A stretch of 64,000 nt of DNA from contig NZ_JANHDK010000001.1 of the NCBI RefSeq assembly GCF_024494725.1, positions 1,178,001-1,242,000 of the forward strand. The letters run 5' to 3'. Shown in pieces: positions 1,657 through 41,967 of the stretch (its first letter is position 1; each line of letters starts with the position of its first letter). Below the pieces are notes generated by a model. That model ran no database searches. It was given only the letters and a program-made list of their open reading frames with translations, and was not told where the DNA came from. This stretch comes from Haloplanus ruber. Lineage in GTDB: Archaea > Halobacteriota > Halobacteria > Halobacteriales > Haloferacaceae. Both the position numbers and the translations under genes were made by a program.

Positions 1657-4600
1657 ATGAACTGGGAGCCCCCGGATCCCGTTCGCGTCCTGCACGTCGA
1701 CGACGATCCCGATTTCGCCGAACTGACCGCCACCTTTCTCGAACGTGAGAACGACCAGCTGACCGTCGAGACGGCAACCAACGTCGACGAGGCGCTCGAA
1801 CGGCTTCGAGTCGACGAGTACGACTGTGTCGTCTCGGATTACGATATGCCCGGTCGGAACGGCATCGAGTTTCTGGAAGCCGTTCGGAAGACCAACCTCT
1901 CGCTTCCGTTCGTCCTCTTTACCGGGAAAGGCAGCGAGGAAGTCGCCAGCGACGCCATCTCCGCGGGCGTGACCGACTACCTCCAGAAGGAGACCGGGAC
2001 CGACCAGTACGCCGTCTTGGCCAACCGGATCGTCAATGCCGTCGAACACGACCGCTCGCAGCGGCTGGTCGAACGCAGCGAGCGCCGCTTGCGAGAGATT
2101 GTCGACTCGCTCCCGCACTCCCTGTTCGTCGTGGACCGCGAGGGGCGGTATCTGCTCGCGAACGAGACCCTCGCAGAGTTTCACGACACCACCGTCGACG
2201 ACATCGAGGGCACCACCGTCGCCGAAATCCTCGGTGACGAGATGGCCAACCAGGTTCGGAGCGACGTCGAGGAGGTGCTGAAGACGGGCCAGCCAAAGCG
2301 CGTAACTGACGTCGAACTGCCTGACGCAGCGGGCCAGACACACATCCTCGAACCCCGGATGCTCCCGTACGACCTCGCAGAGGGCGACGAGGCGGTGCTC
2401 GGCATCGCGGTCGACGTGACGGAACGCGAGGAACGAAAGCACGAACTCGAACGGGCACAGGAGCGGATGCAACTCGCGCTCGACCGGACGCAATCGGTCA
2501 TCTTCGAGATCGACCTCGACACCGGGGCCGTCGTCCGGCACGGCACTTACGAGCAGTTTTTCGATCACGCTCCCGCAGAGGTGCCGACGTGGGAAGCACA
2601 CTGCGAGACCGTCGTCCACCCGGAGGATCGGGCGGCGTTTCGACGCTTCCACCGAGAGTTGATCGAGGGCGAACGGGAGCGCGGCGAGATCGAATACCGG
2701 ACGACCCCCGACGCCGAGACGGGCGAGCACCGCTGGCTCCGGGCCACCGTCGACACCGACGGGGCGCCGGATCGCCGGGCGGTCGGCATCTCCCGGGACA
2801 TCACCGCGTACAAGAAACGTGAGGCGGAACTCGAACGCAAGGAGCGACGATACCGCGCCGTCTTCGAGGATCCGAACATCTCCGTCGGGCTACTCGACAC
2901 CGACGGGACGGTACTCGACATCAACCGGACGGCGCTGACGTACGTGGACGCCGACCACGCCGACATCGTCGGTCGACGCCTCCCGCGGACGCCGTGGTTC
3001 GACGAGGATGACGACACCGCCTCACGAACCGAGGCGTGGATCGACCGCGCCGCCGACGGGGAGTACGTCAAGTTCGACCTCGAACTCACGCGACCGAACG
3101 GCGACCCCTACTCGATTACTGGCGTCTTCCGCCCCGTTGCGGACGACGACGGCAACGTGACGTCGATCATCGTCTCGACACGCGAGGTCAGCGAACGCGA
3201 GCGCAACCGACGAGCGCTGGAGCGGACGAACACCGTGCTCTCGACGCTCGTCGACACGCTTCCGGTGGGCGTGCTCGTCGAGGACGAGAACAGGCGCGTG
3301 CTGAAGACAAACGAGCAGCTATTCGACCTGTTCGGGATGCAGGGAACGCCCCCCGAGACGGTCGGCGAGGACTGTGAGCGCTTAGCCGAGGCGGTCAGCG
3401 GTCTGTTCGCGGACCCCGAGGCGTTCGTCGACGGCATCGAGGCGACGTTGGCGGGTGACGAGGACGGCCACGAGGAGACGCTGTCTCTTCGGGACGGCCG
3501 AACGTTCACCCGAAAGCACCGCCGAATCGACTTGCTCGACGGCGACGGCCACCTCTGGATGTATCGCGACGTGACCGAGCACGCGCGACGCGAACGGCGC
3601 CTCGAAGCCCTGAACGAGACGACCAGGGAGCTGATGGCCGCGGAGACCCGAGAGGGAATCGCCGAAATCGGCGTCGAGGCGGCACGGACAATCCTCGGCC
3701 TCGATGCGAACTCGGTCCACCTCCGCACCGACGAGGCGGGACTCGCTCCGGTCGCGTACACGGACGCACTCACCGAAATCATCGGCGAGCCGCCGGCGTT
3801 CGACGAGGCGGAGAGCATCGCGTGGCGGAGCTACGAGCAAGGGGAGGCGTTCGCAGTCGACGACGTCCAGACCGATCCGGACATCTACAACCCCGACTCC
3901 GTGATCAGGAGCGAACTCTACCTGCCGCTCGGCGAGGACGGTATCCTGATCGCGGGATCGACCGCCCCCGACGCCTTCGACCATCGGGATCTGGTTCTCG
4001 GGGAGATTCTGGCCGGAAGCCTCACCACGGCGCTCGAACAGGTGTGCCGACGGGAACGGCTCCGCGCCCACGAAGGGGAACTCGCCAGACGGAACGACCA
4101 CCTAGAATCGTTCGCGAGTGTCCTCTCACACGACCTCCGGAGTCCGCTGAACGTGGCCATGGGCCAACTCGAACTGCTGGCCGAGTCGTGTGACAGCGAG
4201 CATCTGCCGACGATCCGGCGGTCGCTCGACCGGATGGAGACGTTGATCGACGACCTCCTGACGCTCGCCCGCGAGGGCACCGAGGTCGGAGAGATGGAAC
4301 CCATCGAACTCGCGACGCTGGTCCAAACCTGCTGGGAGACCGTCGAGACGGGCGCCGCCAGTCTCGATATCCGCACCGATCGGACGGTCGTGGCCGATCG
4401 CAGCCGACTCCGACAACTGATCGAGAATCTGATTCGGAACAGCGTCGAACACGGTTCGACGGGCAGTCGGACGGAGTCCGACGACAGCGTGGAGCACGGC
4501 TCCACGGGTAACCGGACAGAGTCCGGTGACAGCGTCGAACACGGTTCGACAGGCAGTCGGGCGGAGTCCGACGACAGCGTGGAGCACGGCTCCGCTGATC

Positions 4601-37712: not shown

Positions 37713-37799
37713 GGACAGCGTGGGGAGCGGCGCGCTTCCGTCGGCCGACACACGTCGAATAGCGCCTGTTATCAACCCGCTTGCCGTACACCGCGACGG

Positions 37800-38573
37800 A
37801 TGACCGACCTGCCGGACTCGCTCGTGTCGTTCATCGAGAAGGAAGCAGTCGCGGATCGGTCGCTGGCAGTCGTGAACCGGACGCGTCCACGGCCCATCCA
37901 GGATATGCTGGAGGAGTTGTTCGCCGAACAGTCCGTCGAGATCAGGGAATTCGACGTGCCGGGCACCGAGGAGGACATGGTGTTGCTGCTCAACGGCGAG
38001 GGCGAGGTGATCGCTTCGTCGCCGCTACGGGAACTCGAAGAGGAGTTGCTTCTGGTCAACTCCGACCTCTACGTGACGGGCGCGAAGGGACTCGACGACG
38101 TGAGCCTACCGGCGGTCCTCGAAGGACTCTCGGAGACGCCGTTCAGGGTTCGTGGCTATCCGGCCGCACACTCGGAGAAACTACCGCTCATCGCGATGTC
38201 GCGGTATATCGAGCGACTCGCCTGGGAGCACGGCTCCGGCCGACTTCGGTCGTCGTTCCAGCGACTCTCCAGACTCGACGACGAGCGGGGAACTCGGGAG
38301 GTGTATCGTCAACTGGGAGCGACCGACGTCGACGTCCACGTCTACGGCGTGCCGGACTGGCTCCCGCCGGAGTCGTTCTCCGGCATCGTCCACGCGGGGT
38401 ACACCGGGGAGTTTCGGACCTCCTGGTTCGTCGTCCACCACACGGACGAAGCGGACACGGCGGGGGCGGCGCTCGTTGCCGAACGAGTCGACGACGGCGC
38501 GTGGGAGGCGGTCTGGACGTTCCGCCAGGAGCGTGTGCGTGCGGTCAACCGGTACATCGAGCGCACTCTGTGA
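37800..38573 (+). CDS. DICT sensory-domain protein
   Basis: A 257-residue soluble protein matching the haloarchaeal DICT proteins. The N-terminal region (SLVSFIEKEAVADRSLAVVN) and the middle FDVPGTEEDMVLLLN-type strands form a sensor fold associated with two-component systems and light- or redox-linked signalling. No kinase or HTH is present. It is upstream of the second large histidine kinase, after a small membrane protein on the opposite strand, so the two may share a signal pathway. The start at 37800 has GTTATCAACC about 32 bases upstream. Confidence 0.75.
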   Translation: MTDLPDSLVSFIEKEAVADRSLAVVNRTRPRPIQDMLEELFAEQSVEIREFDVPGTEEDMVLLLNGEGEVIASSPLRELEEELLLVNSDLYVTGAKGLDDVSLPAVLEGLSETPFRVRGYPAAHSEKLPLIAMSRYIERLAWEHGSGRLRSSFQRLSRLDDERGTREVYRQLGATDVDVHVYGVPDWLPPESFSGIVHAGYTGEFRTSWFVVHHTDEADTAGAALVAERVDDGAWEAVWTFRQERVRAVNRYIERTL

Positions 38574-38599
38574 GTCGGCACCGCCGGGCGGACGGCCGC

Positions 38600-38956
38600 T
38601 CACCGTCCCCGGACATACCCATCGAGCGCCACGCCACCGCTCAGACAGGCCAACAGTCCGGCGTACCAGACCAGGTGAACCGGGCTGTCGGGCGCGGAGA
38701 CGACACGGATTGCCACCATCCCAACGACGTACGCTGGGACCCCACCGCCGAGGAACCGCCGAACACCGATCCGCGTCACGTGGCCGAAGGCGGTACCGAG
38801 GGCGACAGCCGAGAACACGACCAGTCCAATTGTGGGGGCCTCACCGACGGCCGCCGCTACACCGGTCCAGTAGACGGCGCCGGGCGGCCACAGCACCACT
38901 CCCGACAGCAGCGCGAACGCGCCGCTGGCGGCGACATCGCGAGGACGTCGTGTCAT
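38600..38956 (-). CDS. Small four-helix membrane protein
   Basis: A 118-residue hydrophobic protein with about four membrane segments (for example FALLSGVVLWPPGAVYW and TIGLVVFSAVALG). The ATG at 38956 (MTRRPRDVAASG) is preferred because the N-terminus then starts just before the first helix; the frame start at 39037 adds a Cys/Arg-rich stretch lying over the promoter of the kinase on the other strand. It is convergent with the DICT gene and divergent from the histidine kinase gene. The function is unknown. Confidence 0.6.
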   Translation of the reverse strand: MTRRPRDVAASGAFALLSGVVLWPPGAVYWTGVAAAVGEAPTIGLVVFSAVALGTAFGHVTRIGVRRFLGGGVPAYVVGMVAIRVVSAPDSPVHLVWYAGLLACLSGGVALDGYVRGR

Positions 38957-39087
38957 CGCGAAGCGTTCCGCCCGCCCGGCGCAAAAGTGTGGTGACCGGT
39001 CCGACTCTCCGGTTGCCGACAGCCGAATCGTCGCCACTCGTCGGGAACATGCGAGGGCTATTTATCTCGGCTGAACCATCCGACGGC

Positions 39088-41820
39088 ATGAGCGAGACGA
39101 CCGAACCTGGTCGTATCCTTCACGTCGCCGCCGGCGACTCGTCGACCCGGTTCGAGGCCCTGGCCGACTGGACGGTCGAAAGGGTCGCGAACAGCGCGGA
39201 CGCCCGCGCCCGACTCGGCCAGTCGACGTTCGACTGCCTCGTCGTCGAGGGTGACGACTCCGCGTCCCTGACGACGGTGCGAGCGGCGCCGGACAGCCTC
39301 CCCGTGCTCGTCCTCTCGGCGACGCCGTCGGGCACCGTCGCGGACGGGACGGCCACCGACGTCGATTACGTCCGAACGGACCCGTCGGACCCGGACGTGG
39401 CGTCGCTCGCCGCCCGGGTGGGTGGCGCCGTCGGGCGACGACAGGCGGCGCGGCAGGCGGCAAGCGCAGAACGAGCCTGTCGGCTCGTCGAATCCGTCGG
39501 CCGGGCGGTCGCGGCGGCCGAGACGCGGGCAGCAGTCGAACGCCGCGTCTGCGACACCGTCGCGGACGTCGGTCCGTACGATGCCGTCGGGATCGACGAC
39601 TACGACGCCGACCGGGGCGTCGTCACACGGCGGGCCGCGGCTGGCGACGCCCCGGGCGACCCCGAAGAGGAGATGTCGGCCACCGGAGCGGCCGAGCGGG
39701 CGCTCCGAACCGGCGACGTCACGGTCACGTGTGACGGCGAGAGCGCGTGGAGCGACGACCGTGCGGCCGCAGCCGTTCCCCTGTGCGACGACGGCGCGAT
39801 GGTGGGCGTCCTCCACGTGGCCACCGACCGGACGGACGCCTTCGACGAGCGGGTGATCGAGGCCCTGACGGCGGTAGGGACCGTCGTTGCCGACGCCGTC
39901 ACGCGGGCCGAGACCCGAAGCCAGTGCGCGCGCCGCCACCGCCAGTTCCGGAGCGCTGTCGAACACGCCGGCCACGTCGTGTTGCTCACCGACGCCGACG
40001 GCCGGATAACCTACGTCAACGACGCCTTCGAGTCCGTTACCGGCTACACAGAAGCGGAGGCGCTTGGCCACAGTCCGGCGCTGCTCCAGTCTGGAACCCA
40101 CGACGGGACGTTCTATCGTGACCTCTGGGAGACGATTTCGTCGGGGGAGACCTGGGAAGGCGAAGTCGTCAACGAGCGCAAGGACGGAACCGAGTACATC
40201 ATCGACCAGACCATCGCCCCGATCAGCGACGACGACGGAATCGTCGGCTACATCGCGATCAACCGGGACATCACGGAGCGCAAGGAGCGCGAACTGAACC
40301 TCGCATTTCTCAAGCGCGCCATCGACCAAGCCGGAATCGGCATCGGGACCTACGGCTCCGACGGCTACGCGACCTACGTCAACGAACGCCTCGCCGAACA
40401 GTTCGGAACGAGTCGTGACGACCTCCGGGAACGGCACATGTGTTCGCTGGATCCAACGCTCGAGAAGTCACGCTTCCCGTCGTACTGGTCGTCCTTCGAG
40501 GACGGCGAGCGGCGGATCCGCGACGCGCGGATCGAGCGCCTCGACACCGGAGAGTGCGTGCCCGTCGAAGTCGTCTCCTCACGGGTCCGTATCGACGGCG
40601 ACCCCTATCAGGTGAACACGCTCCGTGACGCGACCGAGCGCAAGCGACAGGAGCGGGACCTCGAACGCTTCCGGAGCGCGGTGGACCACGCGGGACACAG
40701 CGTCCTCATCACCGACGCCGAGGGGCGGATCGAGTACGTCAACGACGCCTTCGAATCCACCACCGGCTACTCGGCAGCGGAAGCCATCGGCCAAACGCCC
40801 GCGCTGCTTCGCTCCGACGAACACGACGAGACGTTCTACGACGACCTCTGGGAGACGATCCTCGACGGCGACGTCTGGCAGGGTGAGGTCGTCAACGAGC
40901 GCAAGGACGGGGAGCAGTACGTCGTCGATCAGACCATCGCCCCGATCAGCGACGGCGACAGTGACGGCGACGGCGGGATCACCGGCTTCGTCGCGGTCAA
41001 CCGCGACGTGAGCGAGCTCAGGGCCTACGAGCGCGAACTGGAGGCACAGAACGATCGGCTCAAGCAGTACGGAGAGACGGTCGCCCACGACCTTCGAAAC
41101 CCGCTTGCCGCGCTCGATGCCGACCTCAAGCGGTTCCGTGCGGCCATCGACTGCGGCGAGTCGCCGGCCGGCGACGCCCCCGCGGACACGGTCGACGCCG
41201 AGGCCGTCCGAACGCTCTGTACGAGCATCGACGACACCGTCGACCGGATGGAGGCGCTGATCGAGGACCTGCTGACGATGGCCGAACATGGGCGGCGAGT
41301 GATCGACGCTCAGCCTGTCTCCATAGCGGCGGTCGCGGCCGAGGCGTGGGAGGGCATCGACACTCCGGACGCCGAACTGTCGGTGCAGGACATAACGGTT
41401 GACGCCGATCCCGACCGAGTCCGGGAACTGCTCGCCAACCTGTTTCGGAACAGCGTGGAGCATGGCTCCACGAGAAACCGGACGCAGTCCGGTGACAGCG
41501 TCGAACACGGTTCGACGGGCAGTCGGACTCAGTCCGACGACAGCGTGGAGCATGGCTCCACCGACGAGTCCGGCGTCCACGTGCGTGTCAGCCCGCTCGA
41601 TTTCTCCCCCGGCTTCGCCGTCGAGGACGACGGTCCCGGCATCCCCGAGGACGAACGCGACGACGTCTTCGAACGCGGGTTCACCACCGCCGCGGACGGC
41701 ACCGGCTTCGGACTGGCCATCGTCGAACGGATCGCCGACGCACACGGCTGGTCCGTCTCCGTGACGGAGAGTCGGGCGGGCGGGGCGCGCTTCGAGTTCC
41801 GGACGGACGCGGGCGCGTAA
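39088..41820 (+). CDS. Sensor histidine kinase: pseudo-receiver, GAF, three PAS, HisKA, HATPase
   Basis: A 910-residue cytoplasmic kinase. The N-terminal region (1-110) is a receiver-like domain lacking the key residues: the acidic pair is replaced (HVAAGD) and the phospho-acceptor position has Glu (LVVEGDD). GAF follows (about 125-285), then PAS at 288-400, 403-525 and 527-655. PAS 1 and 3 are close internal repeats sharing VVNERKDG. HisKA has HDLRNP with His about 668, and HATPase has N-box NLFRNSVEHG (about 785) and G-box DGTGFGL. A palindromic repeat follows the N-box, as in the kinase at 1657. The start at 39088 has TTTATC 27 bases upstream. The frame extending to 38152 overlaps the DICT gene and was rejected. 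Confidence 0.88.
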   Translation: MSETTEPGRILHVAAGDSSTRFEALADWTVERVANSADARARLGQSTFDCLVVEGDDSASLTTVRAAPDSLPVLVLSATPSGTVADGTATDVDYVRTDPSDPDVASLAARVGGAVGRRQAARQAASAERACRLVESVGRAVAAAETRAAVERRVCDTVADVGPYDAVGIDDYDADRGVVTRRAAAGDAPGDPEEEMSATGAAERALRTGDVTVTCDGESAWSDDRAAAAVPLCDDGAMVGVLHVATDRTDAFDERVIEALTAVGTVVADAVTRAETRSQCARRHRQFRSAVEHAGHVVLLTDADGRITYVNDAFESVTGYTEAEALGHSPALLQSGTHDGTFYRDLWETISSGETWEGEVVNERKDGTEYIIDQTIAPISDDDGIVGYIAINRDITERKERELNLAFLKRAIDQAGIGIGTYGSDGYATYVNERLAEQFGTSRDDLRERHMCSLDPTLEKSRFPSYWSSFEDGERRIRDARIERLDTGECVPVEVVSSRVRIDGDPYQVNTLRDATERKRQERDLERFRSAVDHAGHSVLITDAEGRIEYVNDAFESTTGYSAAEAIGQTPALLRSDEHDETFYDDLWETILDGDVWQGEVVNERKDGEQYVVDQTIAPISDGDSDGDGGITGFVAVNRDVSELRAYERELEAQNDRLKQYGETVAHDLRNPLAALDADLKRFRAAIDCGESPAGDAPADTVDAEAVRTLCTSIDDTVDRMEALIEDLLTMAEHGRRVIDAQPVSIAAVAAEAWEGIDTPDAELSVQDITVDADPDRVRELLANLFRNSVEHGSTRNRTQSGDSVEHGSTGSRTQSDDSVEHGSTDESGVHVRVSPLDFSPGFAVEDDGPGIPEDERDDVFERGFTTAADGTGFGLAIVERIADAHGWSVSVTESRAGGARFEFRTDAGA
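41454..41561. repeat. In-frame array of palindromes in histidine kinase 2
   Basis: Five perfect palindromes with 7-base arms and 3-base loops. In order: GTGGAGC/GCTCCAC (41455-41471), ACCGGAC/GTCCGGT (41477-41493), GTCGAAC/GTTCGAC (41500-41516), GTCGGAC/GTCCGAC (41522-41538), GTGGAGC/GCTCCAC (41545-41561). This is the same cyclic order and 45-base period as the array in the kinase at 1657-4890, and the same place after the N-box. The loops are ATG, GCA, ACG and TCA. It encodes repeats of SVEHGSTxxRTQSxD. Confidence 0.92.
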
Positions 41821-41862: not shown

Positions 41863-41967
41863 TAGTCCCGGGCGGATTCGAACCGCCGTCCTGGGCTGTC
41901 TTTCACCCGGGGCGATCCCCGAACGGTGTCCAAAGGCCCAGATGATTGGCCACTACACCACGGGACT
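41863..41967 (-). tRNA. tRNA-Gln(UUG) with an intron
   Basis: The minus strand gives acceptor 5' arm AGTCCCG and 3' arm CGGGACT with discriminator A. The T arm is GGCGG, TTCGAAT, CCGCC and the anticodon stem TGGGC/GCCCA. The anticodon loop CTTTGGA contains TTG, for Gln. A stretch of about 32 bases interrupts the loop after position 37 (41898-41929), and the mature tRNA is about 73 bases without CCA. Introns in tRNA-Gln(UUG) are known in haloarchaea such as Haloferax volcanii. A TATA-like TTAGTTAT lies about 28 bases upstream (41993-42000). CCA is not encoded. Confidence 0.92.
41898..41929 (-). other. Intron of tRNA-Gln
   Basis: About 32 bases (exact ends uncertain by one base) in the anticodon loop 3' of position 37. 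It would be removed by the archaeal bulge-helix-bulge endonuclease EndA. It is too short to carry a gene. Confidence 0.8.

Follow-up and report, generated by a model that had tools for sequence, protein, structure and literature searches.

Tandem coding hairpins at the N-box of haloarchaeal histidine kinases, with signs of DNA-level pairing and apparent concerted evolution between paralogues

The window, as we call the whole stretch of DNA analyzed here, comprises 64,000 nt of Haloplanus ruber (assembly GCF_024494725.1, contig NZ_JANHDK010000001.1, positions 1,178,001-1,242,000, forward strand) and encodes two histidine kinases on the + strand that carry arrays of short palindromes. In the domain search, kinase 1 (P0002, 1657-4890) has the architecture response regulator-PAS-GAF-HisKA-HATPase_c, and kinase 2 (P0001, 39088-41820) has the architecture GAF-PAS-PAS-PAS-HisKA-HATPase_c, with Pfam HisKA at 664-733 and HATPase_c at 774-907; the HisKA and HATPase_c domains as well as the N- and G-boxes are present in the host genes of the arrays. 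The original prediction treated the two kinases as unrelated, which the domain search contradicts: they are paralogues of the PAS/GAF-HisKA-HATPase_c type that differ at their N-termini. The frame of kinase 2 remains open for 936 nt further upstream of the ATG at 39088 (38152-39087), overlapping another ORF (37781-38995), and the true start is inferred only. Just downstream of kinase 2, a tRNA gene was identified by Rfam on the − strand (41863-41967, ~105 nt, E = 7 × 10−8), probably an intron-containing one given its length; ARAGORN at default settings reported no tRNA in the window.

Directly after the N-box of kinase 2, five perfect hairpins are arranged back to back and in frame (41454-41561). 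The SVEHGST codons of the N-box itself (ANLFRNSVEHG, 41434-41466, + strand, with N, E and H as invariant columns) constitute the first palindrome of the array, namely, hairpin A1 of unit 1 (VEHGST; CGTGGAGC ATG GCTCCACG, 41454-41472, arms 41454-41461 and 41465-41472). It is followed on the same strand by A2, within the linker NRTQSG (ACCGGAC GCA GTCCGGT, a C(GNA)G triloop, 41477-41493, arms 41477-41483 and 41487-41493), by B1 of unit 2, again encoding VEHGST (CGTCGAAC ACG GTTCGACG, 41499-41517, arms 41499-41506 and 41510-41517), by B2, within the linker SRTQSD (GTCGGAC TCA GTCCGAC, 41522-41538, arms 41522-41528 and 41532-41538), and by a second A1 in unit 3 (GTGGAGC ATG GCTCCAC, 41545-41561, arms 41545-41551 and 41555-41561). 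A unit, 45 nt long in the window, consists of two hairpins, one formed by the VEHGST codons and the other by the linker (xNRTxSG or xSRTxSD); in type A, GTGGAGC..GCTCCAC precedes ACCGGAC..GTCCGGT, and in type B, GTCGAAC..GTTCGAC precedes GTCGGAC..GTCCGAC. Kinase 1 carries approximately four 45-nt units at the same site after its N-box (4443-4595, + strand), in the order B1-B2-A1-A2-B1-B2'-A1. The same four stem types, in the same cyclic order, are indeed found in both kinases, as had been claimed (A1-A2-B1-B2-A1 in kinase 2). The further claim that stems are identical while loops differ holds for most copies; it fails for a B2 copy with one G.T mismatch (4556-4572) and for the last A1 copy in kinase 1 (4579-4595), which ends in ...TCCGC.

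The VEHGST palindrome pattern has seven matches in the window, all inside kinases 1 and 2, compared to 0.05 expected. A blind scan of the 64 kb for at least three hairpins within 130 bp returned exactly two clusters, the kinase 2 array and 4377-4506, and single-strand DNA folding of the kinase 2 array yielded z = −7.0 on either strand. Pattern and family searches were extended to the host genome (3.28 Mb). There, 48 matches to HATPase_c were obtained, of which 47 exceed the Pfam cut-off; approximately 10 kinases bear one to four units, always following RNSVEH.

Scanning 84,980 prokaryote species for the exact pattern yielded 97 stretches, all labelled haloarchaeal except for one that is labelled only as an uncultured archaeon, and of 392 genomes sampled from the order, 78 contain arrays (at least two units 45 nt apart). 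All arrays that were examined lie in histidine-kinase genes, at the N-box. When the element was sought outside kinase genes, none with the VEHGST motif was found in the 84,980-species scan or in ~1.7 Mb of loci, and a hairpin-cluster scan gave unrelated intergenic arrays. Hairpin-rich intergenic stretches of ~100-450 bp were observed in Halorubrum and another haloarchaeon (L133:590-1050, L110:1680-1810, L096:3250-3390 and L142:1060-1180); their perfect hairpins are numerous and unrelated, one of the triloops C(GAA)G, C(TTC)G, C(TAC)G or C(GGA)G often being present, and the stretches may represent a relative of the kinase arrays that does not encode protein.

Units are 45, 48 or 51 nt long (15-17 residues), in frame, with two short hairpins each. 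They were collected by the VEHGST motif, which biases the sample towards intact hairpin 1; the synonymous-site and linker tests are less affected. For the purposes of this analysis, linkers were grouped into class S (10 codons, triloop), class P (11 codons, e.g. SPDSQARQD, loop TCGCANRCTC) and class E (EGSxIPRE). Class E linkers (EGSxIPRE or ESSIPR, in L329 and L229 of G007 and L007 of G000) have stems of 6-8 bp, for example, GAGGGATC..GATCCCTC.

In hairpin 1, Watson-Crick pairing between third codon bases was counted in 429 units: Val pairs with Ser in 383, where column composition predicts 190, and Glu with Gly in 380, where it predicts 208. Among array-less kinases, only 6 of 20 have the Glu-Gly pair (Fisher p = 6 × 10−9 vs. 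array units). For hairpin 2, 76% of the 212 linkers have a perfect stem 6 bp or longer, vs. 10% after synonymous recoding with host codons. In the seven pairs of the class S stem, 889 of the 959 cells are Watson-Crick (summed expectation 624), and the amino acids track the pairing (N..G, S..D, P..A, A..P, S..T, D..P, I..S). Array codons also depart from gene usage: GGT represents 9% of the Gly codons further upstream in the same genes, yet nearly half of the units have T as the third base of this codon. Chance or codon bias as the source of the palindromes was ruled out by the pattern-count, recoding and array-less kinase comparisons. The covariation counts were obtained without a tree, from related sequences and with no phylogeny correction, so that the p-values are not to be taken literally; common descent is insufficient to account for the covariation, given the repeated changes within single arrays and genomes. 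As far as can be judged from sequence, it seems to be the pairing that dictates the amino acids at this site, not the reverse.

Mismatches in the class S stem are depleted to a comparable extent for G.T (18 vs. 89 expected) and A.C (29 vs. 106 expected); in hairpin 1, there are 8 G.T and 42 A.C mismatches, codon preference accounting for part of the A.C excess. Positions 1 and 3 of the triloop are coupled across a codon boundary (n = 124; GNA 55 vs. 40.6 expected, TNC 25 vs. 7.0 expected, p = 4 × 10−23), and GNA as well as TNC, its reverse complement, are mostly closed by C-G. Among other triloop hairpins in the same DNA (stems of 4-8 bp), taken as a control, only ~3-8% are C(GNA)G. A GNA triloop rule applies to stable DNA hairpins. 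The d(GCGAAGC)-type hairpin is a known extra-stable DNA fold (PMC10527192). The class P loop could, by inference, form GAG-NNTG-CGA with tandem G.A pairs on the opposite strand. Because G.T is no better tolerated than A.C and GNA triloops occur on either strand, the pairing signal looks like one at the level of DNA, on either strand, rather than of mRNA.

Neighboring units tend to alternate. Both covarying pairs are different in 126 of the 212 comparisons between adjacent units (permutation expectation 63.7), and units two apart are identical in 52 of 71 (19.5 expected), resulting in an A-B-A-B succession of synonymous stems; simple tandem duplication of one unit would produce the opposite pattern. 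This may reflect the loss of identical neighbors through mispairing or recombination, or else a requirement for each hairpin to fold on its own. Departures from alternation were observed as well. In one array (L281 of G006, G006:C1:249298-249491), adjacent units are near-identical, with a broken Glu-Gly pair GAA..GGC, perhaps the result of recent slippage expansion; two Halarchaeum arrays (L256 and L062 of G149) contain five to six units each, mostly of one stem type and with GPQQEAADS as the linker.

Within the genus, sequence comparison revealed array-less orthologues of both window kinases (NAVEHGGDGVNVRV and similar): in G001 and G008 for both kinases, in G002 for kinase 2, and in G011 and G009 for kinase 1. 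These align with the window kinases over 500-930 residues at 59-74% identity. The G000 and G007 orthologues carry different arrays, and a class E module common to both window-kinase orthologues of G007 is absent from those of G000. In Haloferax, filled and empty syntenic plasmid kinases differ by exactly 90 nt, that is, two units, the direction (gain or loss) being unpolarized; the H. lucentense and H. alexandrinus plasmid kinases read NAVEH[GSTGSRDSPDDAVEHGSTGNQTASGDAVEH]VGDGVTV, and the syntenic plasmid kinase of two H. gibbonsii strains reads NSVEHAGDGVTV. Whole-unit indels are bounded on either side by the VEH portion of the N-box palindrome.

Among 36 orthologous array pairs, the flanks are 89% and 88% identical compared to 77% for the arrays, which differ in length in 33 of the 36. 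Two near-identical strains have identical arrays on their plasmids, which implies that arrays turn over faster than the remainder of the gene but less rapidly than strains diverge. The closest relative of a unit in another gene comes from the same genome in 47.5% of cases vs. 9% with permuted genome labels, and linkers are exchanged between kinases in a cassette-like fashion. Stems are more alike among paralogues within a genome, with matching stem sets in 73% of within-genome pairs vs. 48% of between-genome pairs. The residue before VEH usually agrees between the N-box and the repeats (SS 106, AA 95; SA 23, AS 8), as expected if the two homogenize one another. At the level of sequence, these observations are indicative of concerted evolution between kinase genes. 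The original suggestion of transfer or gene conversion of the element among kinase genes is supported by the array-less orthologues and the within-genome likeness, the molecular route not being shown; likewise, an origin in the kinase's own N-box is supported by the identity of its SVEHGST codons with the first palindrome and by the matching residue before VEH.

An AlphaFold2 model of the kinase core has the N-box helix at residues 116-138 and the following strand of the HATPase domain at 172-177; the array falls within the loop that joins them, which is modelled with low confidence (pLDDT < 50 for 137-154 and 162-166). The loop is inferred from this model to be, probably, a place tolerant of insertions.

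Taken together, we favor, at a probability of roughly 0.55, a coding palindromic repeat, neutral or selfish in nature, that arose out of the N-box and spread by recombination among kinases, its mechanism and function being unproven. A unit would consist of the VEHGST palindrome copied from the N-box and a second, freely varying linker palindrome, and units would be copied between paralogous kinases by recombination through the common N-box palindrome (gene conversion, unequal exchange or slippage). Complementarity of the arms may be kept by template switching at hairpins, whereby one arm is copied onto the other, by favoring of folded hairpins, or by both; within coding DNA, template switching is known to make the two arms alike and to invert the spacer (PMC8604942), and it is also known to preserve hairpins (PMC8794818). 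Since identical neighbors would mispair or recombine away, it would be the tandem copies with unlike stems that persist, and the encoded peptide would be no more than a disordered loop that the protein tolerates on its surface. Among the arrays compared, neither a recombination nor a template-switch event was directly observed. Loop inversion, a signature of template switching, is weakly seen (GAA/TTC, GCA/TGC and ACA/TGT on the same stems, r = 0.29), and a pattern of arm homogenization by multi-base compensatory change is present, with single events unresolved; template switching alone is no explanation for the A-B-A-B succession.

Other explanations account for part of these data. Ordinary vertical inheritance and drift of both window arrays, with the stems agreeing through codon bias, would be compatible with the paralogy of the kinases, their common N-box and the GC-biased codons. 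However, this is highly improbable because the arrays are optional, evolve faster than their flanks and are more alike between paralogues of one genome than between genomes; the array codons are also far from gene usage (GGT). The outcome that would have refuted the original prediction, namely, inheritance of both arrays from an ancestral kinase with independent drift, is thus contradicted by the array-less orthologues and the within-genome homogeneity. A role at the protein level, in which the repeated VEHGST/acidic loop beside the ATP site tunes kinase activity and the repeat number acts as a rheostat, could be advocated given that the arrays are always in frame, keep the VEHGST amino acids in most units and vary in length among species. 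We consider such a role very doubtful in view of linker residues that vary freely while the DNA pairs (159 distinct peptides), covarying synonymous sites, a loop predicted to be disordered and the retention of array-less orthologues. Protein-level or sequence-specific selection on VEHGST itself remains possible: hairpin 1 encodes constant amino acids and the linker variable ones, a difference towards which the search motif biases as well.

The location inside a coding sequence, the strong RNA fold and the marking of some 10 kinases of one genome would also be compatible with mRNA hairpins that pace translation, protect or process the message, or tune expression of the kinase set. This is quite unlikely, considering that sense-strand G.U is no better tolerated than A.C, that it is the opposite strand alone on which TNC triloops and the loops of class P appear structured, that a single genus contains orthologues bearing arrays as well as orthologues lacking them, and that the array matched no Rfam family, the nearby tRNA being the only hit. 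Hairpin cassettes might also be moved by a specialized recombinase or transposase for which the N-box palindrome serves as attachment site, through recombination of folded single strands of the kind found in integrons or REP elements. This could explain the strict site specificity, the indel ends within the N-box palindrome, the cassette-like linker exchange and the stable C(GNA)G DNA hairpins, and Y1/HUH transposases are common in the genus. Nevertheless, we regard it as unlikely: there is no array outside kinases in the species scan and loci described above, and ordinary recombination between kinase paralogues suffices. As for a Y1 (RAYT-like) transposase as the mobilizer, Y1_Tnp is present in G000, but the array-bearing G027 (99% completeness) lacks one, so that it is not required in that genome. 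In a related and rather unlikely version, C(GNA)G hairpins on single-stranded DNA are inserted at the N-box palindrome as the attachment site, deleted or exchanged by a structure-recognizing pathway, and the intergenic Halorubrum arrays are the non-coding form. If this were true, haloarchaeal sensor kinases would contain a hypervariable, genome-wide homogenized coding cassette array in which DNA folding, not protein function, writes the amino acids.

The arrays appear to represent a natural case of DNA folding deciding protein sequence, with dozens of peptides that are alike only in codon pairing. Hundreds of natural replicates in culturable haloarchaea could allow hairpin selection to be separated from template-switch maintenance, and the arrays provide a system for watching concerted evolution among members of a gene family. 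For annotation, such repeats in kinase loops are not, on their own, evidence of protein function, and covariation alone is no proof of a functional RNA.

No earlier description of the element was found in the open-access literature, most subscription journals being outside this coverage. REP/BIME elements are interspersed arrays of short hairpins with mosaic alternation of unit types, and REPs are extragenic and conserved in sequence. By contrast, the kinase arrays are intragenic and coding, with free stem sequence, and all of them lie inside ORFs, so that the extragenic criterion is not met. Rickettsia palindromic elements (RPE), also known from Wolbachia, resemble the arrays in being palindromic, translated, tolerated, variably present and in frame within conserved protein genes (PMC2229807). 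They differ in that RPE are single insertions of 105-146 bp with one long stem-loop, in many unrelated genes and intergenic sites, whereas the arrays are tandem 45-51-nt units of two short hairpins each, in one gene family, at one site and derived from a host motif; moreover, RPE lose repeat identity with time (PMC6649704), whereas pairing in the arrays is kept by compensatory change. Thus, of the RPE criteria, in-frame palindromic insertion is met, and gene range and unit size are not. The coding palindromes of Nematomorpha mitochondria are likewise perfect inverted repeats in conserved coding sequence that use degeneracy for pairing, are gained and lost between species and have been proposed to be maintained by template switching (PMC6649704). 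These palindromes are scattered and reach 284 bp, as opposed to short tandem hairpins with alternating synonymous stems at one site; the criterion of inverted repeats kept perfect through change is met by the arrays, with no sign of homology. PARCEL, finally, are tandem coding repeats with dyad symmetry and variable copy number that spread in and between genomes, with 25-residue amphipathic repeats in many clades (PMC2996958), whereas the arrays have 15-17 residues, are predicted to be disordered and are confined to haloarchaeal kinases. The arrays meet the criterion of a dyad-symmetric tandem coding repeat but not that of a 25-residue DUF285-type repeat, no such family being present in the domain search. 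Although they fail the defining features of RPE and PARCEL, the arrays fit the known class of coding palindromic repeats.
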